A DNA stretch of 64,000 nucleotides from NCBI GenBank assembly GCA_030248195.1, contig JASAND010030983.1:43772-107771 (forward strand), in the 5' to 3' direction. Below, piece after piece: positions 11 to 47,100 of this stretch. The DNA comes from Trissonchulus latispiculum. Lineage: Eukaryota; Nematoda; Enoplea; Enoplida; Ironidae. Position 1 is the first letter of the stretch; the number at the start of each line of letters is the position of its first letter. The notes below the pieces were generated by a model, which made no database searches, had not been told where the DNA came from, and worked only from the letters and a program-made list of their open reading frames with translations. The position numbers and the translations under genes were made by a program.

Positions 11-3000
11 TTGAAGCAGTTAGCCGCTATGGCTCAAGATGTGTTGGATCATCAATGTGATACCTGCGGGAAATCATTCAAGAAGAAATCCAATCTGAGG
101 CGTCATCAGCGAACGGTGCATGCCGGGCGCAATTGGCCTTGTCATCAGTGTGGAAAACCATTCTCAAGAAAGGACAGCTTTGAACGTCATCTGAGGATTT
201 GTGGGAGAAAAAGACGTACTCAGGAAGACACTGGAACTTCTAAGAAGCCTCATCTGGATCCTCAAGCTCTAACTGAATCGGATGAGGAGTTATTGGACAT
301 GCCGATGCCTGTGATCGAACCTATTCAACAACTGACTGAATCGGATGAAGAATTATTGGAGATGCCAATGCCTGATGCTCGTCCACCATATGAAGTTGTA
401 CCCACTCAGCAAGCCTTCCATGGTTGGTTGCGAGGTTACCGGGTGGTTCCAAGGGACTTTGCTGGTGATCTGGAGGTGTTTCTTGCTGAGGTTCGGGAAC
501 AATTGGTGGGGCTTTTGAATCGAGAACGGGATGACTTGGTGGGCCTCAAGTTTTGGCTGTGTACGAGAGTTCGTCTTCGACGGGCTACGGATAAGCTGGA
601 GGTGATGGAGGCACACTTTTGCTGCAAAGCAAAAGATGTACAATTGGGAACCCCTTTGGTTGAGGAGGTGGTCCTGGCGGAGGGTGAAATTAAGAAGCAT
701 CTGGAGAGTTTTCTCAAGATGGGTTCCAATTGGGTGGTGGATGAGGTCCTACATATGGATGTTCAGATAGCTCGTCATCGCCCTCTTGTTGGTTCTTCCT
801 ACAAACCTCTTCCTCGTTGGATTCAATCAAAGAAGGCTGTTGTCAACGTACAAAACAGCGACAATTTATGCTTTCTCTGGAGTATACTGTCAGCACTACA
901 TCAGCCTGATGATAATCCATGTCGGGTCTCGAAATACGAATCGTTTAAATCAGAACTTGTCATCAATGGACTAGATATGCCAATGAAGTTGAAAGACATC
1001 CACAAATTTGAAAAGCTCAACACCATCAGTATCAATGTATTTGGAGTGGAAGACAAATCACTCCTTCCTCTGTATCTATCTAAGAACAATTACGATAAGC
1101 ACATCGATTTGATGCTGCATGATGGCCATTACTCATGGATCAAGGATCTTGATCGTTTGCTGAGTGATCAAAGAGGTGATCAACACAGAAAGCATTTCTG
1201 TCGTCGGTGTCTTCTACCTCAGTACAGTTCACAGAAGTTGAAGGATCACGTGGAGCGGTGCCTCGTCAATAAACCGAGCAAGGTGACAATGCCAACTGAT
1301 GACACTTTGCAGTTCAAAAATTTTCATCGACGGCTTCGAAGCCCCATAGTTGTGTATGCTGATTTTGAGTGTCTAACTGAGAAACTAGATACATGTCGAC
1401 CGACTCCGTCTAAGTCATCCACAACCGCCTATCAGCGACATACGCCTTGTGGCTATGGTCTGGTTTCCATTAAACAGTGCTGTGACGAAGGAACAAGGAG
1501 CATTGGTGAATCCTCTGTCTATCGAGGAAAGGATTGTGTGTCCAGATTTCTTGACGAAATTATTAATATTGCAGAAGAGCATAACACTGCGTTAACAGAT
1601 CCTGCACCTCTTTATCTGACTGATACTGAAGAATCTGGCTTTCAACAAGCCCTCTGCTGTCATCTTTGTGGAAAACAGCTTCTTGTTGACAGAGTACGAG
1701 ATCATTGCCATTTGTGTGGTTCCTACAGAGGACCTGCTCATAACAGGTGTAACCAACAACATCGTTTAAACAGAGATGTCACTGTTGTTTTCCATAACCT
1801 CAGACGATATGATGCCCATCTTATCATGCAGGAAATCGGCAAGGTCTCAAAAGATAGAAAACTGAAAATGAACGCTGTAGCCAAAGGAATGGAAGACTAT
1901 CTCAGCTTTTCCTTGAAGAAGACGCCCTCGAAAGAAGGAGACGATAGTGACGATGAGTCAGAGGAAGAGAAACTGATTGGTGGATATGGTCGGGAGTCTG
2001 CTTCTTGGAGGATTCGATTCATAGACAGTTGTCAGTTCCTTATGGCTTCATTGGATACCTTGGTGAGTAACCTTCAGGACGTCCAACTGAAAATACTGGG
2101 TTCAAATCTTCCTGATCCTTCCAAGCGGTCCTTATTAACGCGCAAAGGAGTGTATCCATATGACTATATGGACTGCTGGCAGCGATTTGATGAAACTGGA
2201 CTCCCACCCAAGGACGCATTCTACAGTCGTCTAACAGAACAGAACATTTCTGACGCTGACTATGAACATGCCGTTAAGGTATGGCAAAGCTTTAATTTGC
2301 GAACACTTGGTGGATATCATGATTTGTATTTGTTAAGTGATGTATTACTACTGGCTGATGTGTTTGAGAACTTTAGAGCCTTTTGTCTTCAGCATTATGA
2401 CTTGGATCCTATCCATTACATTACATTACCTAGTTTTGGATGGGATGCTTGCCTTAAGCTGACTGATGTTAGGCTGGAGCTTCTCAAAGACAACAATCAG
2501 TACATGTTTTTTGAACAGGGTATTCGTGGAGGTGTTGCGATGATTTCTCATCGTTATGCCAAAGCGAATAACCCTTATCTGGATTCATTTAATGATAGTT
2601 TACCTATGTCGTATATTATGTATCTGGATGCTAACAATTTATATGGGTGGGCTATGAGTCAAAAACAGCCTTGTGCAAACTTTCATTGGCTTTCACAATC
2701 GGAAATTGATAAAATTGATTGGGAGGGCGTGAATGAGGAGGGAGAGGAGGGCTACGTTTTGGAAGTTGATTTGGGGTATCCTAAAGAACTCCACCCATTG
2801 CACAATGGTTACCCGCTTGCTCCGGAGAAATTGATAATTTCTGATGATATGTTATCACCATACTGTACGCAACTAAAAGCGGATCTCAATGTAGCTGATT
2901 CAAAGGTGCACAAGCTCGTGCCCAACCTTTACAATAAACAAAAATATATTATTCATTTTCGTAACCTAAAACTTTATTTATCATTGGGTCTGAAATTAGA

Positions 3001-3883
3001 GCGAGTGCATCGTGTCCTTGCTTTTCGACAATCTGCATGGATGCATAAATACATCAGCTTTAACACTGAGATGCGCAAGGCTGCTAAGAATGACTTTGAA
3101 AAGAATTTGTTTAAATTGTTGAATAATTCTGTTTTTGGGAAAACTATGGAAAATGTGCGTAAATATATAAATGTGGAGCTTGTATGTGATCAGGCTCGGT
3201 TCAGCAAACTGGTATCAAATCCTCGTTTTGAGCGGGCTACTGCTTTTAATGAGGATTTGGTAGCAGTCTGTATGAGTCGAGCGACGGTCGAGCTCAATAA
3301 GCCCATCTATGTTGGGTTTAGTGTGCTTGACTTGTCAAAGCTGCTCATGTATGATTTTCACTATAATTATATTGTACCTAAATATAAGGATAATTGTAAA
3401 TTATTATTTACTGATACTGATAGTCTATGTTATTTCATTGAATGTAATGATGTATATAAAGATATGTCTGCTGATTCTCATTTGTTTGACTTTAGTGACT
3501 ACCCTTCCGATCATTTTTTGTTTTCCACAACCAATAAAAAGGTAATGGGGAAAATGAAAGATGAGACGAATGGTAGTCCCATTTCTGAGTTTTGTGGGTT
3601 GCGGGCTAAAATGTACAGTATTTTGTGTGGTGGGGAGGCTAAAAAGAGGGCAAAGGGTGTTAAAAAGTATGTTGTAAAAAGATATCTTAATCATACTGAT
3701 TATGTTGAAACGTTGTTTGATAAATCTCTTCGTCGAAATGTAATGAATATGATTAGAAGCGATAAGCATCAATTATTTACTCTGACTTCAAACAAAATTA
3801 GCTTGTCTGCTTTTGATGATAAGCGTTACATCTTAGACGGTGGGATTAGTAGCTTGTCGTATGGACATTGTGATATTGTGTAG
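11..3883 (+). CDS. Zinc-finger type B DNA polymerase (Polinton/adintovirus-like)
   Basis: Protein-primed-type family B DNA polymerase of the kind carried by Polinton/Maverick and adintovirus-like elements. Two C2H2 fingers lie at about residues 16-65 and a third Cys/His cluster at about 396-418. Exonuclease motifs follow: YADFEC near 448, a Tyr-Asp-His motif in NLRRYDAH near 596, and YLLSDVLLLAD near 775. Polymerase motifs are DANNLYGWAM near 873, NNSVFGK near 1038 and FTDTDS near 1134. An HNH/endonuclease VII-like segment, VRDHCHLCGSYRGPAHNRCN, sits near 562. The frame is open to the left edge and position 11 is TTG; the first ATG is at 29, so the start is either 29 or outside the window. 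No internal stop is present, and an AATAAA follows the stop at about 3,896. No packaging ATPase, integrase or capsid gene of such an element is visible here. It lies in an intron of the downstream ankyrin gene, in the same orientation. Family sure; element type inferred. Confidence 0.9.
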   Translation: MKQLAAMAQDVLDHQCDTCGKSFKKKSNLRRHQRTVHAGRNWPCHQCGKPFSRKDSFERHLRICGRKRRTQEDTGTSKKPHLDPQALTESDEELLDMPMPVIEPIQQLTESDEELLEMPMPDARPPYEVVPTQQAFHGWLRGYRVVPRDFAGDLEVFLAEVREQLVGLLNRERDDLVGLKFWLCTRVRLRRATDKLEVMEAHFCCKAKDVQLGTPLVEEVVLAEGEIKKHLESFLKMGSNWVVDEVLHMDVQIARHRPLVGSSYKPLPRWIQSKKAVVNVQNSDNLCFLWSILSALHQPDDNPCRVSKYESFKSELVINGLDMPMKLKDIHKFEKLNTISINVFGVEDKSLLPLYLSKNNYDKHIDLMLHDGHYSWIKDLDRLLSDQRGDQHRKHFCRRCLLPQYSSQKLKDHVERCLVNKPSKVTMPTDDTLQFKNFHRRLRSPIVVYADFECLTEKLDTCRPTPSKSSTTAYQRHTPCGYGLVSIKQCCDEGTRSIGESSVYRGKDCVSRFLDEIINIAEEHNTALTDPAPLYLTDTEESGFQQALCCHLCGKQLLVDRVRDHCHLCGSYRGPAHNRCNQQHRLNRDVTVVFHNLRRYDAHLIMQEIGKVSKDRKLKMNAVAKGMEDYLSFSLKKTPSKEGDDSDDESEEEKLIGGYGRESASWRIRFIDSCQFLMASLDTLVSNLQDVQLKILGSNLPDPSKRSLLTRKGVYPYDYMDCWQRFDETGLPPKDAFYSRLTEQNISDADYEHAVKVWQSFNLRTLGGYHDLYLLSDVLLLADVFENFRAFCLQHYDLDPIHYITLPSFGWDACLKLTDVRLELLKDNNQYMFFEQGIRGGVAMISHRYAKANNPYLDSFNDSLPMSYIMYLDANNLYGWAMSQKQPCANFHWLSQSEIDKIDWEGVNEEGEEGYVLEVDLGYPKELHPLHNGYPLAPEKLIISDDMLSPYCTQLKADLNVADSKVHKLVPNLYNKQKYIIHFRNLKLYLSLGLKLERVHRVLAFRQSAWMHKYISFNTEMRKAAKNDFEKNLFKLLNNSVFGKTMENVRKYINVELVCDQARFSKLVSNPRFERATAFNEDLVAVCMSRATVELNKPIYVGFSVLDLSKLLMYDFHYNYIVPKYKDNCKLLFTDTDSLCYFIECNDVYKDMSADSHLFDFSDYPSDHFLFSTTNKKVMGKMKDETNGSPISEFCGLRAKMYSILCGGEAKKRAKGVKKYVVKRYLNHTDYVETLFDKSLRRNVMNMIRSDKHQLFTLTSNKISLSAFDDKRYILDGGISSLSYGHCDIV

Positions 3884-7800: not shown

Positions 7801-10800
7801 AACCGTTCAGCTGTTGAAGAGAAAATCGTGATCAAAGTTTTTTAATAATAACAATAATTTTTTCCACGTGCTAGCGCCTATGTTTAACGATTATGGCTGG
7901 CAATTCCTAATTGCCGGCTGTGGGGAGAAACTGTTCCTTATCTAGCTCATTTCTAACACGAGGTCGTAACCAAGGGACCTCCTACCTCAACTCAGGGGTG
8001 GGTCCCCACTCAAAGTCCCAGCTCTTTACAAAACCCCGAAAAACACATATAAAAACAGAAATTTGGGCATAAGGCCCTTACTAGAAATTAAGGCCAATTA
8101 GGCCGTGGCTTGGTTAAAATAAATTAATTTAAAGTAAGGCCCGAAGGCCAAGAAAAGATGAATTTTTAGGCCAAGAGGGCCTTCTAGCAATTCCCTAAAA
8201 GTTGCGTTCCTAATGTGTAATTCTGGCCGAGCATAATGCGCTCAAATGGCCCTTAAGCGTGCGTGTGATGCTTCGTGTTGGCTCAGACCATCTTCTCTGA
8301 CCTGTGTGGGTCAGAGGAGGTCCTAACTCGAGTCCTATGGGAGGGAGAAGTGCGTTGGGGATTCTCCGGCCAAAACGCTGGCACAGGAGACGCACTTTTA
8401 GAGGGGGGATACACGGCCGCTCTCGGCCGGAGCTGAAGCAAACACTGATGAAAATTTTGAATTTTCCAGTGAGCTGAGAAGAGTCTGACAGCTCACTGAC
8501 CTTATGGCTTTTGCCGGGTCCTCTTTGAAGAAAGCAGGATTTCCAGAATTTTCTGGAAATCCTCTTTGTAAACTATAGACCCGACGCGGGCTGTTTGCAC
8601 GCCTGGCCCACCGAATAGAGATTAATGGGGGTTTGGAGTTATAACCCTCCAAGCTTGACTGACCCCTTGTTTGATGAATTTCCCAAGCTGAATCCCAAGA
8701 AACTTTCCAGACTTTTTGGTTAACATGTAGGGGTAAGCAAATAGGAAGTTTGCTGCTTAAAAAATTAATTTTCTCGAATTAAAAAACAAAATAGTACGAA
8801 GTAAAGGCCGTTCGGGGTCTGTCATGAAAAAATAAACATTAATTGCCACTTTGACCGTAGTATTTTGTAAATTTTATGTTTATTCTTTTTAGGCGCTCCC
8901 TTGTTTCCAAGCCCCTTTCTTTCCTTTTGGGCGTGACCTTTCGGCCGAGAACAAGGGAGGCCGCTCGTTAATCCTAGCAACAATTGCTCTCCCTCACTGG
9001 AACGTAGAATCTCTACCTGAAGATACAGGAGGGCAATTGTTGCGCAAAATTAGCGCATACAACGAACTACGTAATTTTTTAGGTAATAAAAACTAGATAT
9101 TAATATTCTACGTATGAAACTACCTAGAGTTAACTAATTTTTGTTTTCTTTTATTTATTTGGGAGAGGGTTAAGCCCCCTCCGAACCTATTTTCATACCT
9201 AAGGTGTGTACTAACTCCTTCTCTGCAAGGCAAATCTTTGCTGGGTGAGGGCCAACAGAAACCCAGAGAATGAATAGAGGAATGAATGAACGTAACAACA
9301 CGTGATTGTTACGTTTTGTTACAAAATGTGCAATCCTAAGGCCAATATTATAAAATTAAAACGTAATCACCCAAAACTTTTTTGGCCTGCATCTTTCGCA
9401 ATATTGGGAGTTAAAAGACCGGGTTTGGATGTTTAGAATCAGGAAAGAATTGCCTTTCAGATAAGCCTAAGTTGTATTTTTACCAAAAATCTTCAAAATT
9501 CACTAATTATTACCAGATTACTACTAATTAGACCTAACTAACACCTATTAATGTCCATTAACGTTATTTCATGCGACTAACTAACGAATAATTACATTTT
9601 AGTGACCCATCTTCCAACATGTGAAGTTAGTAGCCGTATAAGCGTCTTTTAACAGAGTTTTCTTTGACAATTTGCTGCTTCTTATACAACACGTTTATTA
9701 AACTTTTCTCTTCATTAATGTAAAGAAAATGGTTGGGCTAACAGCCTTTTAGGAGCTGAGAGATCACTGCAAAGACTCAATTTCTGAACTTTATTGAACT
9801 CAGCCCTTTCTATTGCACAAGTTTGGGGGTCGGGCAAACTTGGTCTTTTCAAACACTTTCTATAGCACTGGTTTCAACTGGCATGTTTCGAACGCAAATA
9901 GGAGCACTGGTGAAATGGCTCAGTTCTCCCTAAGCTACCTAATAGTAAACTGATCGCTCAACTAACTTTGAGATCGGTTTACTATTGTCCCTACCTAGTC
10001 AGAGCTTCCGTAACTAGAACAATGGTCCACTCTGAACCTCAAATAGATTTCCTTCACTATACAGACCACAACAGTAATCTAGAATTCTTGGGTTTAATCA
10101 GAGTCTAATAGTAAAATATCCGTGTCCTCAACTTCAATGCAAGGTTACAAACATCTGGTATAATTATTCAACTGCGAACTAAGATTACAAGACAGATTAT
10201 AACACAAAACTTTAACATATGGTTGTGGCCGACAAATTGGATTCGAGATAGAAAATGGAAGCTCAAGCTCTTCTCTCTAAACACTAGTTTCCACTCACAG
10301 GTTTACCTTAATCCAATGAAATCCGAAAAGTTGACAGTAAAGAGTAATCCACAGACAGAACAGAAATTGCGTACAGAGAATCGACTGGACGAGAATGGGG
10401 CGACTAACACAAAGCAAGACTTCAGACGAACGTTAGCAGTGGCAACCAAGGCACAACTGGCCTATTCTATACGAAAACTGGCAAGCAGATACGGCGCAAC
10501 AGCCAAGGCAACAATAATACCAGGTCTTTCAAGAACCGACCTCTCTCTAGCAGAGTCAACCCCAAACTGAAGTCCTTAGGTCAGTCACCCAACCCCGTCA
10601 CAGTCCCGTTCACGTGCATTTCTCCTTTTTCGGTCCTTTTGAAAATTCTTTTAAGTTTTGCGTGTCTATTCAAAGGGAGATCCATACGTCATGATAAGCA
10701 TGACGTATGCGTTTGCTCAAGGGCTCATGGGGTTCCCCAAATCTTCGTTTTAAGCCGATTAACCCCAACCCTTGAATTTGAACCCATAAATCGGAAAACA

Positions 10801-13800
10801 CCCCCATTAACAGGATCGCTCATGCAAACAGAAACATGCAATCAACTGTATCTCGAGAGGCATTTTCAAAGACATTTTCTACCATTTCCAATTATACAAG
10901 ACTCCGACAGAAAAACAAAAACATTGCCTATTTGAGCATCAATTAGAGACGGTTAAATTGCATTGAGAGTCAGTTAATGCACAATATTAGTTAGACAGTA
11001 TTAGTTAGACAGAAGTTAGTTCAGTCAAAGTATTACATTCAAATGAAAACACAGATTCACAGAGTCAAGAGTTTGAGTCATAGGGATTCAACACAAGAAA
11101 TTAACACACAAAACTTCGGCTTGTTTTTAACTTGTTTTAGCCCAAAACCAAATTCTCTAACAAGGTTCAAAATCTTCCTATTACACTCTCCACCGCAAAA
11201 AATGGTACAAAGTTACACTAGGGGTGTGGATTATCAAGACAAGAAGGTAAGTAGCAGTAATCGAATAGTACGGTCAGCCAAACACGAATACAAGCAGTGA
11301 AAATTATGGTACAAGTATGCTACGTGCAGTGCAGTGAACATAGTGAGTTTACGATCAGTTGAAAAGAATACAAGCATAGTGAGCAGTGTAAAAGCAAATG
11401 GCAGTAACTAGCACAAGACAGACGATGCAGTGCATTCATGGTGTTAGTTCAATAGTCAAACAAAGATCAGGATCAAAAATAGGCTTCACCGGTGAAAATG
11501 AAATTAATAGTTTGTCCGGCGGCTAGAATACGGTCAGTGGCCGAATCTTCGGAGGACTGGTGACGAGTCCAGCAGGGAGGCAACCAGGAGACTGTGGGGC
11601 AGGCCGCGTGTGCTGGAGATGCACAGGCACGGCATTGGTCATGATCTGATGATAGTGAGGGGGTGTTTTAGCAGTTCTCTGGAGTGCCGGGAGAAGCCGG
11701 CGGTGCGGCGGGTATGCTAGTTCTGGTGAACGAAGTTCCGGGATAAGCTGACGGAGCAGCGGTAGAGGTTATCCCAGACGCCGAAGTTCCGGGATCAGCT
11801 GACGGAGGAGCGGTGAGTGGTATCCCAGACGTTGAAGTTCCGGGATAAACTGACGAGGCAGCGGTAAATTGAGGATGATGACCAGGACAAAAGGATGATC
11901 CGACCAGTGTTGGTAGAGAACCACTGCATCGAGCCAAAAGGACCCAAAAAGTGCCATTGCTGAGAAACAGCCTAGAATGTATCGAACGACAACATGAGAC
12001 ATAGTACCCGAAACACGGTGGATGAGAAATCACCCACCGACGAAACAGTAGCATAGCATAGGAACTAACTAGCCAATTCAACTAATTCTTTATGATAGCA
12101 GAAATGAAGCAAACCGAAGCAAAAGTGGTAATAATCGCCATCAAATTCAGCCTTGCCATGCGCGTATCGTGTTAGTCTAGTGCGCGTTCGTGTTACTAAA
12201 ATCAAACCAGATTCCTCAGATGAGTTTTCGAAGTGCACGTAAGTTCCTAAGGTTAGCGAAGCATTAGAGAGTAACTGGCAAAACTAATACAAACTCAAGC
12301 AGTGCAACAGGGTGAGAAAGAAACAACACAAAAAGGGTGCAACTCAGTCTAGGTGCAGTTTAGCTCTTGAATTGTGAAGCAGGCCATCCGGTGCAGTGAT
12401 CCCTTGGCTCTAGTGTAGACCAAAGAAGTTAGGTACAGGAAACAGGAATTCTAAAACTATAGTCTAGCAAACTTAAACTGGACCAAAAGAGTGAATTTTG
12501 TGGACAGTTTATTATTCAAGCTAAGTATGACAATGTATATATTTTCTGAAAGCTCAGAAATCAGAGATTTCAAAAATTTTAAAAAATTTTCAAATTTTCA
12601 AATTTCAAATTTCATAAATTTTGAAAACTGTAGGAAAAGAAAAAATAAACGAAAAGTAGTCGAGTTTGGTATCAAATGAAAGGTCTTGTTCAGGAGAACG
12701 CGAATATGTATCAATTAAGCGGGTTTGGGGCGGCATGTGGTTCCAGCGGGCCCATATCCCGAAAAATAAAAGTTGCTCCGATCGCTACAAACTTGGGCTC
12801 ATTTGAAAGCTCTCATCCCGCTGAGTAAAAGTTATAATTGGGTCATCGCTCAAAAATGCTGTCTGTGAAAGTTATCCCTCTTTAAACCCCAAAAATGGGC
12901 TGTTTGGGCACTTTTGGAGGGTTTAATCCAGGCTAGCAAAAGCGGTGAGCTGAATCAAGTCAAGCCAGTGTGCTACATTTTGCGTCTCATCATTATACAC
13001 AACTACGTGAAAATTGCAGCTTTGGATCTTCATGCATGCGTAAGATAAGCTAATTTAAACAAACTTCAAAGAAGCCGCCGTGTCGGTTCCTTTGAAGTTC
13101 GTTTAAATTAGCTTATCTTACGCGAGCGTACAGATCAAAAGCTGCAATTTGCACGTAGTTGTGTATAATGATGAGACGCAAAATGTAGCACAGCCACTTG
13201 ACTTGATTCAGCTCACAGCTTTTGCTAGCCTGGATTAAACCCTCCAAAAGTGCCCAAACAGCCCATTTTGGGGGTTTAAAGACGGATAACTTTCACAGAC
13301 AGCATTTTTGAGCGATGACCCAATTATAACTTTTACCCAGCGGGATGAGAGCTTTCAAATGAGCCCAAGTTTGTAGCGATCGGAGCAACTTTTATTTTTC
13401 GGGATATGGGCCCGCTGGAACTAAGTGCCGCCCCAAACCCGCTTAATTGATACATATTCGCATTCTCCTGAACAAGACCTTTCATTTGATACCAAACTCG
13501 ACTACTTTTCGTTTATTTTTTCTTTTCCTACAGTTTTCAAAATTTATGAAATTTGAAATTAGAAAATTTGAAAATTTTTTAAAATTTTTGAAATCTCTGA
13601 TTTCTGAGCTTTCAGAAAATATATACATTGTCATACTTAGCTTGAATAATAAACTGTCCACAAAATTCACTCTTTTGGTCCAGTTTAAGTTTGCTAGACT
13701 ATAGTACAGACATGGGCACGGGTTTAACAGACAATAATTGCTACTCCCAAATGTATTCTACAAACAGTTAATTTTACTTCATCGCAAGTATTGTGCGTTC

Positions 13801-16800
13801 CAGTTTTCAAACGTCATCTCATAAAAAATGTGCTACCATTCATTTGCGTTAGGATATCAGTGTAAACTACTAGTTCAAAGAAACTACAGAACCCGGGTGC
13901 TTTGGTGAGATGCTGCGGCTGCAAACAACTGAAAACATAGAAAACCAACAGAACACGGGAGATAAAACAGAATACAGCAAAAACGGCGGTAACAATGAGC
14001 AACTCTCTCTCTAGTTAAGTGTCAAGGGTCAATGGGTCCGGCCATGGTTTTGGGCCGTAAATTCAAGGGACATCACCGTGTTAGCTTATTGTTACCTCAC
14101 ACGTGTGGTCATGCATACAGAGGTTAGTGGTGTTCAGTGTAACTTAACAGTACAGTAACAGGGACAGGACAACCAATTTCAGTATGGGGATTCGTTCAAA
14201 CATTCCGTAAACAGGAAATTCTTGCTCTTTCGTGCCAATACTTTAAGGTTCTGCTTTCTCATTCTGCTTTTCACTGTTAAACTTCAAACGGGTCTTGCAA
14301 GGGGACAAGGGACTTCAAACTTCTCGCTTTTAGGGGGATGGGGACCACCCGAAACATCAAACAAACCGAGCCTTAAAAATCAACAGAAAGGAGATCATGC
14401 GGAAGTAGGGGATGCGCATTATGCGCATTCGCAAGCAAAGAATAGATCCGGAGGGCGGAGTGCTGCAGAAAAGTTCTGCCACGCCCCCGGAAACCAGGCA
14501 ATTCGTGCAAAATGATAACAGACTCACTCATACACAGACGGTTGGGACAAACCAGATTAGCAGGGCGCAACTGCTCAGCATGCTTCAAAAGTAGAGCCTT
14601 GGTGGGGAAGAAATCAAACTGTAACTGAAGGGGAACGGGATAGAAACGGAAAGGAACAGAATAGTACGAAAACTTAAAGCGCCAGAAACAGTGAACAGAA
14701 AGAGCGACACAGCATGACATCACCTCAGGACCTAACAAACTAGCGGGGGAATAGGGGCGAAGAATACCTGCAGACGCAGGTCCACAGTAAACCTTTCCAG
14801 CATGATAGCAGATTTTGATCTCCGGCGGCAGACAGGCAGATTCGCACAGAGGACCCTTCTGTGCCTCAGACAGGAGCCATTCTCCCTCGGGACCAGGGAA
14901 ATGAAGAAACCGATGAATCAGAGGACGGGGAACCGGCAGATCACCAGAATCAGAAGAATCAGAAGGCAATTGGATCTCAAGCTCAACAGAACTGTCAGAG
15001 GAGGAGGATCGGGAACTGGAGGATTCGCTGGAGAAATGACGGACGATCCAGGTAGAAACGCGCTCAGCCATGGTACTGTAACAAAAAGGAAGGAAGGTAA
15101 AGAAAGGATAGCTCTAAGGTGCTCGGATGAGATAGATCTGGCGACTAAGACACTCTTGATGGTGGTTAACTAATGCTCTAAAAGGTTCTTGTGGAATTGA
15201 AGGAATAAGAATCGTAACTATAGGGAGATTTGAGGAGATTGGGCAGGAACTTAGTACCTTACAACACATTAGGATGATAGACAGGACATTCACTGGGAAT
15301 GCGCATGCGAAAATTAAGAACATCATGCGGAATAACCTCATGCAGAACATAGGGTATACGGGCAAGCAAGAACTTAGCTTCATCACACAACAATTGCATT
15401 CCATTAGTGTAATACCACCCATCAATTTCATGCAAAATGACAACATACGGAGACTGGCATTTAACGTTAGGACAACGGTACATTCTACCACCAGAAGAGG
15501 GGACAAGCTGGCGCAACCTCAGTTTTAGAGGATCTCGGGACAATCGGACATCATCATGCAACGGAAATAAGGTAATGGGGACACCAAAATAACTCAACGT
15601 AGTACGCCACCAGCACTCAACGCAAAGAAATGTGCAAACTTGTGCCAAAACGGGGCTTTGCAAATGAATTCGACAATTATTTCTAAAAAGACCAGACATA
15701 CGGGGATCTGTGTAAACATCTACTGTTCCAGGTAACATTTTCAAACCATCAGGAAGCGCGTTTGGTTCTCGATACGGCCCTTGCATTTCAACGGGGCAAT
15801 TCATTCCCATGAATTCACTTTCAACATCATCACCCTCAACTTTTTCAACTGACAGGGAAACACCAATGATCAACTTTGGAGCCATGCTTCTCTACCACTT
15901 TCTAAAGTGCAAACGTAGTTTCAATCTCTTGTTAAGTTCTTCCCCTTTTTACACTTTTTACCCTGTGCACGAGTCGACAGTTAGGTCACAGTTTATAACG
16001 TTTTGCTCAACAACCAAATCTTCAGAAACGCATTTAGAATGCTTAAACGTTAAATCACCCGTCCTTTCCAGATCATACCGAACAATACACAGTGCGTAAG
16101 GATTAGTAACATGCAACACAGACTAGCTAACATAAACAAACAAACAGCTGATTAGTCGTATCTCTTTAGCTACTTAAGTCATTGCATTCCAATCACATTA
16201 CATAGAAACGTAGAATCATTGCAGTTACATTATTGCACATAATACAGTAACAATAGTAAAATGAAAAAATGGTTTTGTAGGTAGGTTTTGTCTTTGGTAG
16301 GTTTTCGACATTATATAACTTTTTTGGGGCATTTTGTTAACGATATTACTTTTTCTAGTACCTTTTGATGTTTTGTCAAATAAAATTCTCTATACAAAAT
16401 TACAAATTAACCCTTACAATAACAAACTTGCGTAATTTTGGATGTTTTTCATATACAGTTTACAGCATTTTTATGGGGCTGAGTTTCAAACGGAAATCTT
16501 AGCTTTTGAGTGCAGCTGTATCCCAGATCGAACGTAGATTTGCTGCATTTTGTAACCTAACTATACAAAGGTTGCGGACCGTAACCTCTGCGAGCTTAGC
16601 CGATACCATCGGAAGTTGTTAAATCCGAGGCACTGTGCCAAACCTGGAGCGAATCGGCTTCAACTTAGTACAGTTCTTCCTCTAGTACTTATCGTATGTA
16701 CTGAGGCAATGCCCATCGTGGAGCAACTTTATCATAATCCTGGTTCTAGATCAACGGCATTGTTGGTATTGCCGAGACCTCTTTTTCACAAAACAATTGT

Positions 16801-19800
16801 AGATAGCAGCTAGGGTAATTTTGGTCCAGCAAGAAGTGAAACAGTTTACAGACTTTACAATTTAGTGTGTAGAACACAGTGTTTTGCCTATACAGTTTAG
16901 AACAGATTATCCGCAAATAAATTCAAAAATGAAATGGAACTTTACAAATTTACAGTAGATGCTATTTTACAAATCACAGAGCGGTTTAGCGTCCAAGTGG
17001 TTACTCAGACGAGCGCAGATCCTTAATGGGATCTGAAGTCGTTCGCGTCAGGCGCTGTGAACGACGAAAAGGGTTTTCGAACAGTGGCGAGGGACCCGAA
17101 AACAGCGGGCTACTCGCAAACAATTTCTTAACGTCTGCATGGGAAGTGGTCTTGTCGGGTGCTTCGTGTGGGGAGGATTGCTGGGAAGACCCGCTAGTCA
17201 ATTCAAGAGTGTTAATTTTGGGCACTTTGCCAGTGGGCCATTTACCATGGAAGGGTTCCCTCACAGACAGTACTACCATGAAATGGTCACTATTGATGTT
17301 ATAGAGATAGAGGGTGCAACGTTCATACTCCTGCTCTTTTCCCAGGAGAGTTTCAGGTGTAAAAAGTTGCCAGGCCCATTCCTTCCCAAATTTAGAGTAG
17401 GACATTATAGGGGTGTGCAGCCAGGCTGCAGCCAAGAATAACTCGTCATCTGTAGCGAATTCTACAGCTTTCTGCAATCGTTTCTTGGTCTCCTTCATTT
17501 CAGGAAACATATTCCTAAACCGTTTCTTGTGCTCATAAGTGCAGAGAAACTCATACAGATCCTGTCGAATGTCGGTCCATGAGTCTTCTAGGCCTGTTAG
17601 TGCGAGCGAAAGTGCACGGTAATAACAATTTCCATCCCCTAATACATCTAAAACTTCGTAGGGTTCATATAGCGGCATATGCTGCATCAGAACAGGTAAG
17701 TAGTGGCGAACCCGAAAACCCCGGAGGGCGGCCATTCTTTGCTGCCACTTTTCGTCAATGGGGTTAAAGAATTTACGCCGATTGTAATACAGAGGGTCCT
17801 GTTGCTGCGAAAGTGATTCATCCGACAGGTATTGTGGTGCGTCACTAGCCTCACTTGCAGAGTGATCACTTTGCACCTTAAGTAGCGGCCCCTTCCCTTT
17901 CTGCTGAGCGGGGAACAGCGGAACTCTTTTCTCGGAAACCGAGGCCACATTCTGGCGCTCTTCCGACGGAGGTTCTAGTTGCTGTGCACTTTTTCGCCTA
18001 GAGGCACGCGTCAGGGGCGCAGGCCGATTTTCCTGCTCCTTTTGAAGGTCGACGGCTTTCCTAGTTTCCTTTTTGGTTTCACTTTGGACGGGAAAAGAAG
18101 GTACTTTCTTCGCCGTCATAGGCTTCTTTGGAACCGTCGGTTCCGATTTCTCAGAGTTTGATTCTTGGTCCTCATCATGTTCTTGAATGGGTGCTGTGAT
18201 CACCCGCGGTTCAACACATGGAAGCATGTTGTTGAACTGAATGTTAATACGCTTGGCGCGACGATTTCCGGCAGGGTATAAAAAATCCGAAGATTTTCTC
18301 TATTCGGCAGGGACCGGTTCTTTTGTCGAGCAGCTTGTAAACCTGATCACGTTTAGCGACATTAGATGCCTTGATCAGAACTAAATCTCCCACCTGATAA
18401 TTTGGTTCTACAGCTCTCTTATTGTATTGCTCGTCCTGCACCTCACGGGCGGCGGCAGCCTTCTCGCGGGCCAGTGACCAAGCTAATTGTATAGCCTCAG
18501 TGGCCTCCCGAACGTAATCGAAACCGGAATATTTACGGTCAGTGTGGATTGACACATTAGTTGCACTGGGCAAGACAGGATCCCAAGCGTGCAGCAGGTA
18601 GTGTGGTGTCTCTCCAGTGGTGGCGTTTATAGAAGTATTGTAGGCGAACTGGCAAAACGGGATCATATTGTCCCATTTCCAGGTGATTTTCAGAAACCGT
18701 GGCCAACATATCTAATAACGTTCTATTCCAACGTTCGATTTGTCCGTTAGCAGCTGGATGGTACTTGGTGGTTTCAAGTTTACGTGTTTGAACGAGTGCT
18801 CAAATTTCCTTATTCAAAATTGCCACAAACTCTTTACCCTGATCCGAAATTAGAGTTTTGGGTGATCCGTATTGCAAAATTATAAACTCAAGGAAAGTTT
18901 GGGCCACTGTGTAAGCAGTTTCATTCTTAATGGGTATGGCAATAACATATTTCGAGAATGCGTCAATAAAACTAAAGACATGTTTCATTCCGCGTTTGGA
19001 GGTTTTGGAAATATCCATCAAGTCGCAGTGTGCGCGTTCGAAAGGTTCTAAAGCCAGCGGAGGGTGTCGCAACAGGGCTCGAGGATTTCGAGGAGGCCCT
19101 TTTCGCCTTTGACACCTAGGACAAGATTGTATCCAATTTTTAACATCAGTGCGCATTCCAGGCCACCAAAAATGTTCGGCTAGTCGGTAAAAAGTTTTAT
19201 TCTGACCGCCATGTGCAGCGTATGGGCTGTCATGACACGCGGCTAGTGCCTCCTCTTTAAGGACTTCCGGCACGGCCAAGACCTCAAGCGTGGTGTTGCG
19301 CATACGCTCTAGATGCACTAAGACACCTTCTCGCAAATCGCATTGTTCGGCCAAAGCAGCTATTCGTACGGCCCTATTGAAATTGCTCGGCAAGCGGTGA
19401 GTCTGTTTGTACGTCATAATCTCCCCGAGGAGCAAGTCATCTTGCTGCAACTCTTGCAGTTTGCTCCACGACTTAGGGTTCAAAATTACATTAGAGTTGT
19501 CGCGGACAGTGACCTCGAAGGCATCCCCAAAGTTAGCACTAAGTCTACCTTTCCGTTTCCGTCGGCCGGTTTCGGACGATCGGAATTCGGCGCGGAGCGG
19601 TTCGCTCTCGGTTGACTCACAGTTTGTTGCTGCCTTTTGGTGAGGAGGTGGATCGGATTCCGACTCGAGTGTAGTCTGATGAGACTCTGGCTCACTGTCC
19701 GATGCCTGCGGCTCTGGTCCGGAGGGCAGCCGTGGTTGCTTCTTAGGAGTCGGCTCACTACGTTCAGACTCGTCAGATTCAGAGTCCTGCGAAATTTTAG

Positions 19801-22800
19801 AAACTTTAGACCTCAATGCGGAAGTGCTCTTGCGAGCTAGGTCTCGTGAAATTTTTGGTGCGATTTCCTCGCGTGTAGGCGTACGGTCCCTTTTGACCAC
19901 TACCGAGTTTATATGCGCTACGAACTCTTCACTTTCCTCCTGGTGTAACGGTACACCGTTGCGCTCGCTATCGACTTTATCCCCTTTAAATCCACGTGCT
20001 ATGTCGGCGAAAAGTGGGTTACGGGATAATCCGTCAGCGTTTCTCAGCTGGGGATTATTTCGGTGTTTTATCTCAAAATCATACTCAGAAAAGGTCATCT
20101 GCCAACGGGCAAGTCGCGAGTTTCGAGGGGGGTGTTTCATTAGCCATCTTAAAGCCGATTGATCCGTAAAAAGAGTGAACAGAGGGCCCCCATACAGATA
20201 GTGTCTAAAATGCTCAATACCAAACTTCATGGCTAAACATTCTTTGTCATGTGTCGAATAATTTCGTTCATATTTTTTCAAAGAACGGGCGGCGTAGGCG
20301 ACAGGATGATATTTTCCATCATCCTCTTCCTGGGACAATACCGCACCCAACCCCAGGTCCGATGCATCAGTATGCAAAACGAATCCCTTGGCCAGATCAG
20401 GGTGAGACAGCACGGGGGCTTCCACCAGACGTTTCTTAAGCAGTCCAAAAGCCTGCTGGTGGGTGTTATTCCAAACGAAACGAACCCCTTTCTTTTTTAA
20501 GGAATAGAGGGGAGCGGCATGATGGGCAAATCCCTTAATAAATTTGGCATAGTAGGCGCACATTCCCAGAAAACTTTCAACATCCTTAATGTTTTTGGGG
20601 ACAGCTAGGTCGTGAATGGCCTGAATTCTCTCTTTTAATGGCTCGACCCCTTGTTCAGAAATTATATGTCCCAGGTAGGTAACAGATTTCTTTAAAAAAT
20701 GACATTTCTCCGGATTCATTTTAAGATCGGCAGCGCGTAATCAATCAAAAACTTCCTGCATTATCTCTAGGTGTTCCTCGAAAGTTTTAGAGAAAATAAG
20801 GATGTCATCAATATAGATGATGCACTTTTTCCATTGGAGATCTCCTAGGATACGCTCCATACACCGCTGAAAATTTCCAGGCGCGCATTTCAACCCGAAG
20901 GGTAAAACATTATACTCGAATTGTCCGTGAAAGGTATTAAAACTGGTTTTAGCTTTAGTCTCTTCGTCCAACTCAATCTGGTTAAACCCCTTACTCAAAT
21001 CGATAGTCGAAAAGAATTTTGACCCTTTCAGTGAGGTCATAATATCATCAATCCGCGGTATGGGATATACATCAGGATCGCAGATTTTATTTACCTTGCG
21101 AAAATCAACGCACAGGCGCAACTTTCTCCCAGGTTTCGGAACGTAGATCATGGGAGAACTCCAGGGGCTGGTAGATGGTCGAATTAGGCCATATTTCAAC
21201 ATTTCTGTCAATTCCTCTAGAAGTGGCTGCCTGAGATGTACAGGGAATCGGTAGGGCGTGGCGTAGATTGTTTTCGCCTCCCCCGTGTTAATGTGAGCAC
21301 GAAAAATAGTGCACTTTCCTATATCGAAAGGGTGCTGGGAAAAACAATTTTGGTTTGCATTCAATAATCCCAGGAACTGTCCCGTTTCCGAATCAGATAG
21401 ATTGTATTGGTCAAAAGAGATTTTTTGCATTGGTTCAGAAAATCAGAGAAAACGCATGGCCGGACGCTTTTGAGCGCCTTAACTTGGTGAGAGTGCCTTT
21501 CTATGGCTCGAGTAAGTTTATTCCAGAAATGATTGCCCAACCGGATGGTTTCCCCATGCTCATCGCGCAGCTTTGCATATGGAGGGGCTCCCTTTTCTGA
21601 TCCCAATTTCCGCCTGGGTATTACATTTCTGAGAGTGGTGTTCTCGTAGATGGTATGATCTTGACCGGTCTCGTTTCTCATGAGAACGGGTATGTGTTGT
21701 CTGCTCAAGTTCACCAAAGCAGGCAGAACTTGCAAATTTGGTTGACCAAGTTCAAATTTGGTATTTCCCGGCTCGAAAATCCCTTCATAATTTATCGGTT
21801 GCATGCTCTCAATTAATGCTGGTACAGCTACCTCTGCATAGGCATGTATTACCACCTTGCGCATGGCGGAGACCCTGAAGGCAGTTTCCGTCAGAGGAGC
21901 ATGTTGTATCCATTTGGCCGTCATAAGCGGGTGCGTGGCCTTCTTCAGCATAAGCTCTCCCTTTTGGAAGTTTAGCGCCATTTCGCCACCATGTGCCAGG
22001 ATAAAATCGGTTCGAATGAGGCAATCCTCAGCTAGTCCCTTAGGGACCAAGAATGTATGCATGAGTTTCACTCCAGGTGTATTATAAAACCAGACGGGTA
22101 CTCGTACGGCGCCCCGAAATTTTAAAGTTTGTCCGTTAATTCCTTCCGCTCGTGGGGTGTGTGATAGTGGCAGCAGTGGCAACTTTAGTGCACGTACCAG
22201 GTCCTCGCTCATTAAACTTAAGTTTGCTCCCGTGTCCACTAAGGCCTGTATGGGTTGCTCACCTATGTCTACTAGAATCATGGGCAGAGGACGGTGGGGG
22301 ACGGAGACAGCATTGGAGTCCTGTTCCCGCGGATGCTTTCTGTGCGGCATCCCTCCCACTAGGTTTAACCCACGTACTCTTTGAGTATACTCTTTAGTTT
22401 ACTTTGATGAAAATTTCGGAATATTTCTAACAACAGGAGGCCTTTTAAGGCCTAGGAAGAGTAACGACTCTTCCGTTACTTAATCAGAGACGATGATTGG
22501 GGCCTATTACTGACACTGGAAGGGTAACGACCCCTCCGTTATTAGTTAATAACCTGATTAATCCTTATTAAGCCGTATTCTACTGAGTTCCTATTCTATT
22601 CTTGCGTCATTTAAGCGGGTTATAGTGCTATTTCTAACCTTATTCCCTAACCACGCTAGACCCTATGTCCCTATTAGTGAATTTCTGGGTGTTTTGGAGC
22701 CGACTGGCAACTCTGGTATTAACATAATTATCAATAAACACAATAACTGCTTGGACGTTCACATACTACATTCTAGGTTCTGAGCAACAGACTTTCGTAC

Positions 22801-25800
22801 AATATAGCAATAACAAATCCACTTCAGATCACAATCCATGGTTTAATAAATTTTCTTAACTTTTTTGAGTTTTAATTCATTCATAACATTACACATTTCT
22901 GTCATTCATTCATTCATTCATTTTATTTAACCAACCAATATCATTTAAGAGCAATAACAGCAAATGAAATTAACAAGTAAGGTATGAAAAAGCAATAAAC
23001 AACACAAAATTAGTAATTACTATTCACTGTTGGTAAGAAACGGGGTGGGCCGTTTGTCCGGCTACTAATCCCCGCCCCTTAAATATCGCGTGAATCCCTT
23101 TCAATTTTGCTTTATAATCTGCTTCGCATGTGTGTATGTATTTGTTTAGTATAACTCCCCTGAATATAGCCGTAATCTGCGGCAACGGAGTGGCTGTGGA
23201 CTATTTTCTGGACAAAGGCGCCGACCATAACAATGTGGATATTGAAAAGCACTCCCTGGTCCATTGGGCTACGGTTTGTGAAAGAGGAAAGGTTCTGGAG
23301 GCTCTTCTCAAGCAGGGCGCCCTTCCGTCTACTCCTGACATTCATGGCGCTCATGCCCTTCATTATGCCACACAGATGTGGGCGGATGATGAAAAGTTGG
23401 TCCTCTTACAATACATTTTGTATAAGATTGCAATGATTATTTGCTTTCATAATGTATGTAAGTAACAATGCAAAATATTCGCAGCTTCAGCAAATGGGAA
23501 TCAGCACAATATAATAAAATTATAAACGAACTTTTCTTACCTGTGACCAAACGTATGGTGGTTGAAGCCTGGGACTTACTGGAACCATACTCTGTAGTCT
23601 TTTTTCCAAATCGCTTTTTGGTTTTTAAAAATTGGCGAAACTCAGTATTTTTGGCTTCTCTGACCGCTGTATTCCCAATCAAATGGAAGTGTGATTCCCG
23701 CAATCTGCATCCTGAAGTGAATTTTTCTGAATTTAGGAAAACGTATGAAATGATTCGAATTTTGCTGAAGTATGGGGCTAATGTGAACTGCACCGATTTG
23801 GATGAGAGAGCACCACTTTTGTGGGCGGCCAGCTGTGGGAACGTTAAGGCGATGCAGCTGTTGATTGCCAGTGGTGCTGATCGAAACACCACTGATCGGG
23901 ATATGTTGTCCGGTGAGTTAAAGTTTGTACCTTGACCTGGTCATGTTTAAAACTTTTGTATTCTTTGTACAGGATCCTATATTCAACTAAGGATAAATCC
24001 AACAGCGTGCGGAGGGCTAGAGTGTTTCTCTCCAGGAAATAGACTTCACTCTTGGAAGGTTTACAACTCTTTTCTGGTTTTATCAGCTTCTTTCGCCAAA
24101 TTTGGCCAAAAGTTCGTCAAACCTGATTTTTTTCTATTTCCAGTATCGGACTCCATGAGTGTATTGTATCCGTGCAGTTGTGTTCCTAGATTCAAGTTTC
24201 GTGTCTCTCATGTTAAGGCCTGGAATTGGTAATCTAACCGAATATGCTGCCCAGAGCCTGTGGAACTGATTTAACCTTCAAGATTACTTCTAAAATTAAA
24301 GTTTCAATCTTCATTTACTTTGGACATTCCTTCCTACTGTAGGTCTCCACTGTGCGGCTAGTCGCGGTCATTCAAACGTCATTGGATATCTGTTGGATAT
24401 ATCGCCGGGGATGAGTGTAGATCTTCAGGATCGGAACGGGTCCACTCCACTCTTTTATGCAGTGACCTTGGGTCATAAAGACTGTGCCAAACTCCTCCTG
24501 GAACGAGGCTCCAATCCAAACTGGCAGGACAAAAAGGGAAGGACGTATGTTGGTTCTCCTGATCTTTTTCAGTAAAAATGGTTCTAGAGCAAAAATGCAA
24601 CAGAAAGCTTCAATCTTAGAAGGTTCTATACTTGTTGTAATTATAGCTAATTAATTTAATAGTTCAGCTGATGCTAAACTGTAGCACATTACTTTTTATT
24701 TGCAGTTTTGCAAGTGGGATTAGTAGCTAGCTACTGCTATTTTAGTACAACAGCTTGGTATATATTCCAGTGTTTCGTGTTTTGAAATCTAGTAACCTTC
24801 AACTAAAGTGGGAAAGTTGTACTTTCCATTGACAAAAATTGCCATGCTTATGTTCATCAGCTGCAGATGTTTCTACGATTTTTGAACTTTCTTGCAGAGC
24901 TGGTCATTGTGCAGCTGCGAAAGGACAGCTGGGTTCTTTGAAACTATTGAATCAGTTCGGTGCCAGCTTTGATCTGGAAAATCATCGGGGAGATTTGCCT
25001 TTGCACGAAGCTGTTCAAGGATGCCATGAAGGTAACTGGGTTTTTCTTCCTCTCAAAATCAGTCCAACAGATTTTGTTATAAACTTCTGACCATGCATTT
25101 TGTCGAAATCACAGCATAGATTGAAATATGGGTAATAAATGTCGAAATATCGAATGATTTAAGTTTCAGTGCCTGATTTTGTTGTTCCGCGTGAATGTGT
25201 TGAACTCAATGATATCGAGTAAAACACTGCACATGCACGTTTACGGTGATTGATTATTTTAATTTTTGATTGTTATTTCATTTTTGTTATTAATGTTTGC
25301 TTGCTTTTATTTTAGAAGTAACAACTTGGCTGTTGTCCATGAGTCCAAACAATGTTAACGCTGGGAATCATGTTGGTCGAACTCCACTCCACATTGCATC
25401 GGCCATTGGTCACCTCCCTTTGGTTCAGGACCTTTCTAATCTAAAGGCTGACCTAAATTCCCTTTGTAGTTTTAAGGTACAGCAAATTAAATTAAAATTA
25501 AACTTCCCACCCAAGACTGTCTAAAATTTATATTTATTGGTTTAATTATTTTTCGTTTGTGTGAACTATTGGTCCAAGCTCTTTAAAATAAAAGATATAT
25601 GATTTGAGAAATTGATACTTTTTCATTTACTGCTATGAGTGACTAAACGGCTGTTTTTTTGGAACGGCGTTACACTCCGGTTGGTTCCTAAACCAGTTAG
25701 AAGTAGTGTTACTTAGCTGGGTATTATTTAATATTCATTTGCTGAGTAATTCAGGAATTTTTCAGGATCGACTGTTTACTCCTCTTGATATTGCGGAGGA

Positions 25801-44100: not shown

Positions 44101-47100
44101 TGTTAGTGCGTGCTTGCGACCTCTACCAGACTTGATTCGCATACCCGCGGCTCATCAGTGGAGGAGTATGGAATTAAGCTTTTAGATCTTTTATTCCCCA
44201 ATTAAGAAATCATAGAAAAATAGTTTCGCCGCCGGTCGCCTCAAGTAGTGATAGTTAAACAAATACATACAGGAATATATAAACTTTGTAACATCAATAT
44301 CCGCAGGAGATAATTTAAAGGTAAAAGTCAATTTTTAAAAATACATTTTACGAAAGTACTTTCCAAGTAGCTAAAGGGTCTATGTTGATATCCTTATTAA
44401 AATTTGGATGTTTGACAGCCTTTAGAAAATATAATTTTAAAAGTCTATTTGTATAATTTTTATAAATTAACTTTTGTTTTAACATGTTTATGTTAAAAAT
44501 AAAGTTGACTTTATTCGAACAAATTAGAGATATTCTAATAATCTCATTTAAAAATACATTATAACAACTTTTCGTACATATGTTACTTTCTACGCTTGGA
44601 AAAGAATGTGCTTTAAAAGAAAACTGCTTTCTTTTATCATAAAGTGTAGTAATAAAAACTTTATTTTTAATTTTGATATTGATATCCAACACATCTGCTT
44701 CATTTGGTGTAACGTTTACCAAATTAAGCACAAGATCGATAGGATAAATATACATCCAATTATTTAGAAAATAACTGTTATCGTTAATTACTGTTATATC
44801 ATCTATGTATCTAAATACATACATTAATTTATTTAGAGAATTAAAATCACGTTTTGAAATTAAACTTTTAACATATTTGAACTCATACCAGAAAAGTACT
44901 AAATTTGCTAACGCTGGTCCACTACTTGTACCCATAGGTATTCCAATTATTTGTCGGAATACCTTCCCTCCTACAGAGAAAAAACAATTTTCAAGCAACC
45001 ATTTTATTAAGTAACAAAATTCCAATTGGTCTACATTTTTCTTAGATTTACAGTTATCGTTAAAATACGCTCCAATATACCCAAAGACTAAGCGTCTTGT
45101 ATTAGTACCAAAGCATATTTTAGAAATGTTTTCGATAGCTGAAAAAATATTTTCGTGTTTTAAGTTAGTATACAATTGGGTAAAATCAAAAGTGTAAACA
45201 GAAGCTGCAGATTTTGCTGTAGAAATTTTCTTTAAAGATCGAATAATTTCATTACTATTATCGATTATCCAGAAAGGACTGCAGCCATGATTATATTTTG
45301 AAATAGTATGGCAATAAGCTTTCATTCTTTTAAGAAATAACTTTAACTTTAACTTTAATAACTATACACTCCTTTTTTACTGCTACCTACACTTTACATC
45401 AAAGACTCATCAGTCTGTTATGATTATCAACAAGAAAGCAAGTAATAATATAATTAATGTCAAGACACGACGCTGGCCGGCAAAGATAAGCATTCCTTAC
45501 CATGTTTTGATCCGGGAGGGGGAGAGAATCGTTCTGCTTCTGGATTGGGAGTGGCTCCGCCCCCAGACCCTGCAGCCTGTTCCTGTTTAGCCTTCTGGGC
45601 TTCCTGCAGCTTTTTCTTCAGGTTAGTCACAACACTCTCCAGTTTAGTCCAGCTAGGCTGAAAAAAGACAACAGAAACTAAATACAAGTAGGAAAAATGC
45701 TCCTTGCAGTCGCATGAAAAAGTTAATATGAGCTATGATGGTCAACATTTAAATGTGTCAAGGACAAGATTTAAAATGTTTAATATGAGCCAACATCTAA
45801 ATAAGTAGAGGACAAGATGTAAACGGCTAATATGAGCCGCTACGTTTCTCTTGGGCTCATATTGACGCGACTAAAATGGCAAACATATATACAGTTTACG
45901 GTTGGCATATAAGCTTCAGTGTTTTTCAGCTTGAAGGTGTCCAAAAACGCTATTTTTTCCATTTTTGACCATCTATAAAAATCGAACCAGATCGAAATTC
46001 GGAAAAAAAACATAAACTTGCTAAGTACCATTGCCTAGATATTCAAAAAATAGTATAGAAAAATTTTTCCTATGGGCCGTTCGAAAAATCGAGTTAACAG
46101 AAAATTGACAAAAATCATGCTGAATACAGAGAAAAAACCCCCACTTTCAAACCCGTAAGAGAAAGTCTTTTTTTTTCAAAGTTCATTTTTTCATTTTTTC
46201 AAAGTTCATTTTTTCCGGGCAAGTTTGGTATCGCCGAACAACCCATATTCGCGGGATTTCACGTTTCGTCTTAGCTTAGAGCTATCAATGTTAGTCAATA
46301 AAAAATTTAAGCAGTTGAATACTCTTCGAATATAGCTGTTTGCATGTACTGTTAGACTAGCTGCTAGGAATATACGTAAATTATCATCATTTTGTTGTGT
46401 TGAACTACAGCAGGTTCTACTACTAGGAGAGGTCTAAGGATATGATGCTAAAGCTATTGGTCCAAGTCAGGAGGAAATAGAAGATCGTGGGAGAGTCCTA
46501 AATTATTCTTGAATATAAATTTTCTGTATATATAAATGGATACGTAAAATACGCTGGTTAGTATGAAGCACTTATCGAAGAAAACGTTTGTTAAAATAAA
46601 AGTTCGAATAAAGCTCGAGCACATACTGTAGCTGTAGGTTATTTATGAACTATAAACCAAATATATCGTGGATATGCATAATAATTTACATTTACAAACC
46701 GCGAATATGGGTTGTTCGGCGAAGCTGTGCCCATATTAATTCGCTCACAACCTAGTCCTCTTCTATTTTTTAACCTAGCCCCATATTAAGCATTTTAAAG
46801 ACTAGTCCTCTCTTGATTTTGCAACCTCACCATCACCCATATTACTTTTTCATGCTCCAGAGGAGCATTTTTATTTCTTGTATATATATATATATAAAAC
46901 TTAATTTATACGCAGCCCGCATTACTGCAGCATTGTTAGGACAGATTGTTTACAATGCAGGCAGAGATATGCGTTAAACAGACGAAAAGAAAGACTTATA
47001 ACAAAAGTTTAAAATCAGCAATTGATAATATTGCGTGCAAGGCAAGTTAGGACCAAATTGTAGAAAAAGCTGGCATACCCTTTTCAAAGTATAAAGCCTT

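Follow-up and report, generated by a model that had tools for sequence, protein, structure and literature searches.

A tandem pair of cysteine-core genes in the env position of large Ty3/gypsy elements of the nematode Trissonchulus latispiculum

Two intact tandem paralogs, here called ORF A and ORF B, are present in the window (the whole 64,000-nucleotide stretch of Trissonchulus latispiculum contig JASAND010030983.1 that was analysed). The elements that carry them are LTR retrotransposons of the Ty3/gypsy type, roughly 18 kb long. The preliminary description, made from the letters of the window, had taken the pair for a duplicated retroelement gene of unnamed family, and this was borne out, with no match in the libraries searched. 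BLASTP aligned A with B at 30% identity over 159 amino acids (E 9e-19). The local alignment score of 178 compares with a mean of 31.8 for shuffled sequences (z of approximately 30), and the likeness holds against shuffling, with 0 of 2000 shuffles scoring as high. The alignment contains all of the colinear motifs that had been pointed out: a Cys-aromatic-Arg block before SY-x-x-VP, CPN-x-x-C-x-S, VILHE or IILHE, and PHD-x-L. The window coordinates likewise confirm two uninterrupted, ATG-started frames on one strand with a spacing of 187 bp. ORF B has a serine-rich N-terminus, and its core is common to ORF A.

The genome searched comprises 733.8 Mb in 21,732 contigs. For ORF A, 150 of 824 candidates were scored and gave at least 150 match rows; for ORF B, 150 scored candidates gave at least 153 rows, with some copies split over two rows. 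Both ORFs are thus carried by other elements, which bear OTU domains. Among the matches listed, 135 of the 150 A rows are free of internal stops, by a manual count in which frameshifts lie outside the scoring. The identity of A to the window copy falls stepwise (approximately 90%, 67%, 56%, 49% and 46%), and these five steps define the subfamilies s1 to s5. A search with the third paralog revealed s6 and more, and the OTU search revealed further groups. A was found in s1 to s6, and B in s1, s2, s3, s5, s6 and the further groups; the s4 stretches end at or soon after A. Again among the matches listed, 83 A rows belong to s1 or s2. Of these, 80 have a same-strand B no more than 3 kb downstream, in 79 cases at a distance of at most 400 bp, and the remaining three have no B among the B matches listed. 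A or B follows within 4.5 kb downstream in 90 of the 102 OTU rows listed. Two of the other twelve were inspected and both carry A and B; some of the last ten lie near contig ends. A and B are linked to the element across subfamilies.

From 5' to 3', the element consists of an LTR, a single long gag-PR-PR-RT-RH-INT-OTU frame, A, B and a second LTR. A and B therefore follow the pol-OTU polyprotein and precede the 3' LTR, the place of env in retroviruses. Ten copies were retrieved for the architecture. One of them begins near A at the end of its contig, which leaves nine with upstream sequence; in all nine, as in two s6 copies, A is preceded by pol or OTU pieces. Five of the nine have direct repeats shared by their upstream and downstream pieces (89–99.5% over 304–421 columns), and the retrieved pieces of the other four showed none. 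When extended in two copies, the LTRs matched at 97.8% over 1,340 columns and at 97.5% over 1,144 columns, with a total length of approximately 18 kb. In 4 of the 7 copies searched, all of s1 or s2, the 5' LTR is followed after 2 nt by a TGG-starting site that resembles a primer-binding site; the single search string used did not find it in s3 and s5. The PR-RT-RNaseH-INT order was read in eight of the nine copies, and the s4 copy is cut off before RT. In 23 of the 102 OTU rows the open frame around OTU measures 3,357–3,396 amino acids; several subfamilies thus retain long uninterrupted frames.

Gag was scanned in one s1 copy and one s2 copy. In the s1 copy, the first 500 amino acids matched PF03732 (E 4.4e-9) and PF00098; the s2 copy also matched both (PF03732, E 3.5e-8). 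Gag, with its CCHC knuckle, opens the polyprotein in both copies, and the suggestion that A and B might replace gag is therefore not supported. Pfam gave no significant match in the approximately 1,000 polyprotein residues from the gag knuckle to the first protease (L017:1640-5022, L026:1770-5205), and no relation of A or B to this blank part was seen. Between B and the 3' LTR, frames of s1 and s2 show a weak mutual match (best E 6e-7 over 67 columns) and no match to s3; a further gene is not claimed.

Two aspartic-protease domains stand in tandem before RT in eight of the nine copies with upstream sequence. Both keep DTG in one checked copy each of s1, s2, s3 and s5. Retropepsins usually work as dimers, so the tandem protease could be a built-in dimer. 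The OTU-containing stretch of the polyprotein has no relative among the viral contigs searched. A metagenomic protein of 638 amino acids (P0003), which carries integrase domains followed by OTU, matched this stretch with E 3.8e-10, at 34% identity to that of the window over 32% of its length.

The window copy is a worn, 5'-truncated member of s1 (Table 1). It shares approximately 85% DNA identity with two other s1 copies over long blocks. On the minus strand, similarity to related elements begins at 22377, near the start of the second protease, and runs down to approximately 9714; the 5' LTR, gag and the first protease are missing, so that the second protease alone is retained. The neighbouring pol is indeed broken, as had been described, and consists of stop-to-stop pieces at 22398-21361, 21442-20741, 20740-18800, 18711-18244 and 18299-17001 (minus strand). 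An LTR pair was sought within the window and not found, because the 5' LTR is gone. The loss of the 5' part also explains why the preliminary description found neither gag nor an LTR pair. The palindrome is inserted into the 3' non-coding part of the element, which also holds three copies of a 51-bp tandem repeat (window 11731-11883). Adjoining the truncated 5' end, ankyrin repeats were detected in five of six scanned plus-strand stretches (window 23118-25524). These lie on the strand opposite to the element and are apparently exons of a host gene.

Table 1. Features of the window copy, with tandem proteases and third paralogs of related copies (L numbers)
Feature	Position	Strand	Remarks
3' LTR of window copy	~9714..11164 (left end approximate)	-	by alignment to related copies and their LTRs
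Palindromic insertion, 1.25 kb	12456..13705	.	arms of 622 nt, 96% complementary, 6 nt apart
ORF B	14373..15071	-	232 aa, ATG start, no stops; second gene of tandem
Predicted 3' splice acceptor of B	15072..15104	-	polypyrimidine tract and AG; exon start 4 nt before B ATG
ORF A	15259..15885	-	208 aa, ATG start, no stops; first gene of tandem
Cys4 motif of ORF A	C88-x2-C91 ... C138-P-N-x2-C143		
Intergenic stretch, ~1.1 kb, OTU stop to ORF A	15886..17000	-	gene not detectable
OTU cysteine-protease domain, C-terminal part of polyprotein	17001..18299	-	PF02338, E 1.4e-5; retains DGNC and DH motifs
Broken pol with PR2 (second aspartic protease), RT, RNase H and integrase including its C-terminal part	18244..22377	-	several reading-frame pieces
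Tandem proteases	L017:5023-6441, L026:5206-6543		also L019, L021, L023, L028, L030, L034
Third paralog A0	L035:1144-1866, L033:1167-1883, L049:3-737		

From the window alone, which lacks the 5' LTR and gag, the link of A and B to the element is invisible, and the two could be taken for neighbouring host genes or for frames open by chance. There is virtually no chance of this. The linkage of A and B to the element holds in the subfamilies examined, and the stretch that carries them is 85% identical in DNA to other copies, which are flanked by LTRs on both sides where the retrieved sequence reaches. We consider the host-gene or chance-frame reading refuted by the linkage across subfamilies together with the LTR-flanked copies.

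A maximum-likelihood tree was built from 39 sequences, comprising 25 A, 11 B and three copies of a third paralog, A0, from s4 and s5. A single branch separates each of the three groups from the rest, supported at 90/94 (A), 100/100 (B) and 100/99 (A0). With A and B cleanly apart, the tree places the A/B duplication before the subfamilies. It is unrooted and came with a warning of long branches meeting, so the order of the subfamilies is unsure. A0 lies between OTU and A in s4 and s5 and has 35–37% identity to the window A where measured. No remnant of a third A/B paralog was detected in the 1.1-kb gap between OTU and A in six of six s1–s3 copies (best E 0.028). Both A and B are under purifying selection. 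By the Nei-Gojobori method, dN/dS was 0.096–0.296 in 16 of 16 pairs, within and between subfamilies: 0.12–0.30 in all 11 A pairs and 0.10–0.13 in all 5 B pairs. The dS between s1 and s2 is 1.5–2.1, near saturation, and those ratios are therefore rough.

Judged by the alignment, the A/B family has a conserved Cys4 core. The four core positions, which form two knuckles (C-x2-C and CPN-x2-C), hold cysteine in 38, 39, 39 and 39 of the 39 sequences; the window B is the sole sequence that lacks one of the four. The four cysteines would hold a zinc ion. A possible metal-binding protein had been suggested earlier, and that idea stands in part: the near-invariant cysteines are there, and binding itself is a plausible prediction. 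A confident structure model of A/B (pLDDT 83.8, pTM 0.80) shows a globular domain in which the cysteine core is drawn as strands and loops. A first prediction, made from two sequences together, reached a pLDDT of 27.6 and was discarded.

The model matched nothing among the PDB and viral structures searched with Foldseek, or in VIA. At the sequence level, A/B gave no significant match to Pfam, PHROGs or the PDB sequences. Single members hit Pfam entries (DUF1806, RecJ_C and others; E 0.017–0.15); these hits are weak and were set aside as chance. Among 5.8 billion proteins there was no homologue of A, nor of the A/B pair alignment. The phages searched contained no homologue of the window A or of B from one s2 copy, and viral contigs and GTDB contigs contained no A/B homologue. 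The collections searched do not include an animal-genome or transposon library such as Repbase or Dfam, so the family is to be called unknown with respect to these collections.

We also looked for splice acceptors, scoring AG sites with a generic matrix. The predicted acceptor of the window B ranks fourth of 3575 AG sites on the same strand with this matrix. An AG lies 4–6 nt upstream of the ATG in 13 of 13 B starts (s1, s2, s3, s5, s6, L050, L057 and L058). By the generic matrix, nine of these sites rank in the top 1%, three in the top 3% and one, the weak site of the s6 B, in the top 20%. For two s3 copies, the start of B was set at the ATG just behind the acceptor, as in the B of relatives, and not at the first ATG of the open frame. 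As a control, 9 of 1911 ATGs in the window, that of B included, have a top-1% site equally near. In s4 and s5, A is the second of three genes and has a site 12–14 nt before its ATG that ranks in the top 0.1–0.5% in all three copies with upstream sequence. The first gene of the tandem has a weak acceptor: among 13 starts scored, the best site within 60 nt upstream ranks in the top 7–88%, and the 88% case had 44 nt of upstream sequence only. A strong splice donor common to the copies was sought and not found. The acceptor pattern at the second and third genes makes their predicted splicing likely.

We tentatively favour, as the likeliest single reading of these data, that A and B may be splice-expressed, zinc-binding proteins that regulate the RNA of the element. 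B, and A in the three-gene subfamilies, would be translated from spliced subgenomic RNA, and the polyprotein would come from unspliced RNA. An element that splices some of its transcripts still has to bring the long unspliced RNA out of the nucleus, and A and B would act in the cell as a regulatory pair on this RNA. The action may be its export, protection or packaging, by analogy with Rev or with CERV of Cer1. Cer1, a Ty3/gypsy element of Caenorhabditis elegans, needs CERV to export unspliced RNA; CERV belongs to no known family and is made from spliced RNA, with 517 amino acids and five exons, of which three lie in the gag frame (PMC10309623). A and B occupy the corresponding place and have a zinc-type core, and for this reason we hold the RNA-regulating role most likely. 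Both systems are Ty3/gypsy elements, but A and B are two or three tandem paralogs of approximately 205–250 amino acids, each with its own ATG and a Cys4 core. The role of CERV has been shown, whereas that of A and B is what we infer, and the two are likened by description and not by sequence. Some observations argue against RNA regulation. The calculated pI of 16 proteins is 5.65–8.15, acidic to mildly basic, and RNA binders are usually strongly basic. No strong conserved donor was found, the acceptor of the first gene is weak, and no sequence feature names a target for A and B.

Other roles would share much of this evidence. A and B might be antagonists of host defence, adaptors akin to Vif/Vpr/Vpx that divert the ubiquitin or silencing machinery, with the OTU domain engaged in the same conflict. 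The accessory position, the tandem duplication, the third paralog of s4 and s5 and the catalytic motifs kept by OTU are all consistent with this; however, the average dN/dS of 0.10–0.30 denotes strong constraint instead of the fast change usual at such interfaces, and no known adaptor family was matched, which makes an antagonist role rather unlikely. Activation of transcription from the LTR, in the manner of Tat or Bel1, appears unlikely. The zinc-type core points to it, as does the N-terminus of B, a putative activation domain that is serine-rich or acidic in s1, s2, s3 and L050, but this N-terminus is poorly conserved and no DNA-binding family was matched. High constraint, many copies and a zinc-like motif might also befit a minor particle protein, such as a second nucleocapsid or a packaging factor; with a CCHC knuckle already present in gag, and A and B in their own frames outside the polyprotein, this is quite improbable. 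An envelope or other membrane protein, diverged beyond recognition, is very improbable. It would fit the place between pol and the 3' LTR and the acceptor-like site upstream, as in retroviral env. The 19-residue hydropathy maxima of 16 proteins span 1.04–2.19 (the highest counts residues upstream of the predicted acceptor), six of them exceed 1.6, a usual cut-off for a membrane helix, and the first residues of A in s1 are hydrophobic. In the structure model, however, the hydrophobic stretch lies mostly over the strands and loops of the cysteine core or on a helix within the globular domain, and the hydrophobic N-terminus of s1 is not kept in A of s2–s6.

The duplication of A and B has parallels among retroviruses. 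Vpr/vpx of primate lentiviruses and orfA/orfB of walleye dermal sarcoma virus are duplicated accessory genes expressed from spliced RNAs. The likeness to A and B lies in the gene duplication, and no sequence relation is claimed.

LTR retrotransposons that carry an additional gene after pol are already known (PMC5408684, PMC6431247). In the LTR retrotransposons of bdelloid rotifers, an extra, family-specific gene, the captured ORF3, lies downstream of pol; ORF3 matches known enzymes (GDSL esterase, DEDDy exonuclease; PMC5408684), whereas A and B are without a Pfam or structure match and are tandem-duplicated. Burro, a giant gypsy element of planarians, resembles the present elements in its very long, gag-first polyprotein, accessory ORFs and ubiquitin-linked domains. 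It differs in its BIR, ankyrin, MATH and other domains, and the available part of its account contains no tandem pair like A and B (PMC6431247). OTU behind a gypsy-type integrase is already known from the Ginger1 DNA transposons, which have terminal inverted repeats (PMC2836005). The A/B element has RT and LTRs, and membership of Ginger1 was ruled out on these grounds.

For the protein family, the fold and the tandem duplication of A and B, no counterpart was found in the libraries and open-access literature searched. In that literature, no title or abstract describing a tandem A/B-like pair or a tandem protease was noticed, with incomplete coverage of possible wordings. Many env-position genes of LTR retrotransposons are unexplained. 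A and B make up an env-position family that counts at least 150 rows for each member and spans six or more subfamilies. Its duplication is old and its constraint strong; it has a confident structure model that matches nothing, and its predicted mode of expression can be tested. The fold is a candidate new one, and regulation like that of complex retroviruses may have arisen here separately. It is possible, if somewhat doubtful, that giant Ty3/gypsy elements have here a duplicated regulatory system, expressed by splicing and built from a new protein family whose small fold is likewise new and stabilised by zinc. Such a system would have evolved independently of the regulatory genes of complex retroviruses and would be their counterpart, with complexity gained by duplication (A, B, in some subfamilies a third copy, and the protease).

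Elsewhere in the window, a plus-strand frame of 1290 amino acids (11-3883) has N-terminal C2H2 fingers, and Pfam showed the fingers alone; we take this frame to resemble a protein-primed family B DNA polymerase of the Polinton or adintovirus type. A reverse-transcriptase fragment on the minus strand (44348-45325; PF00078, E 3.6e-4, below the curated cut-off) is possibly Penelope-like.
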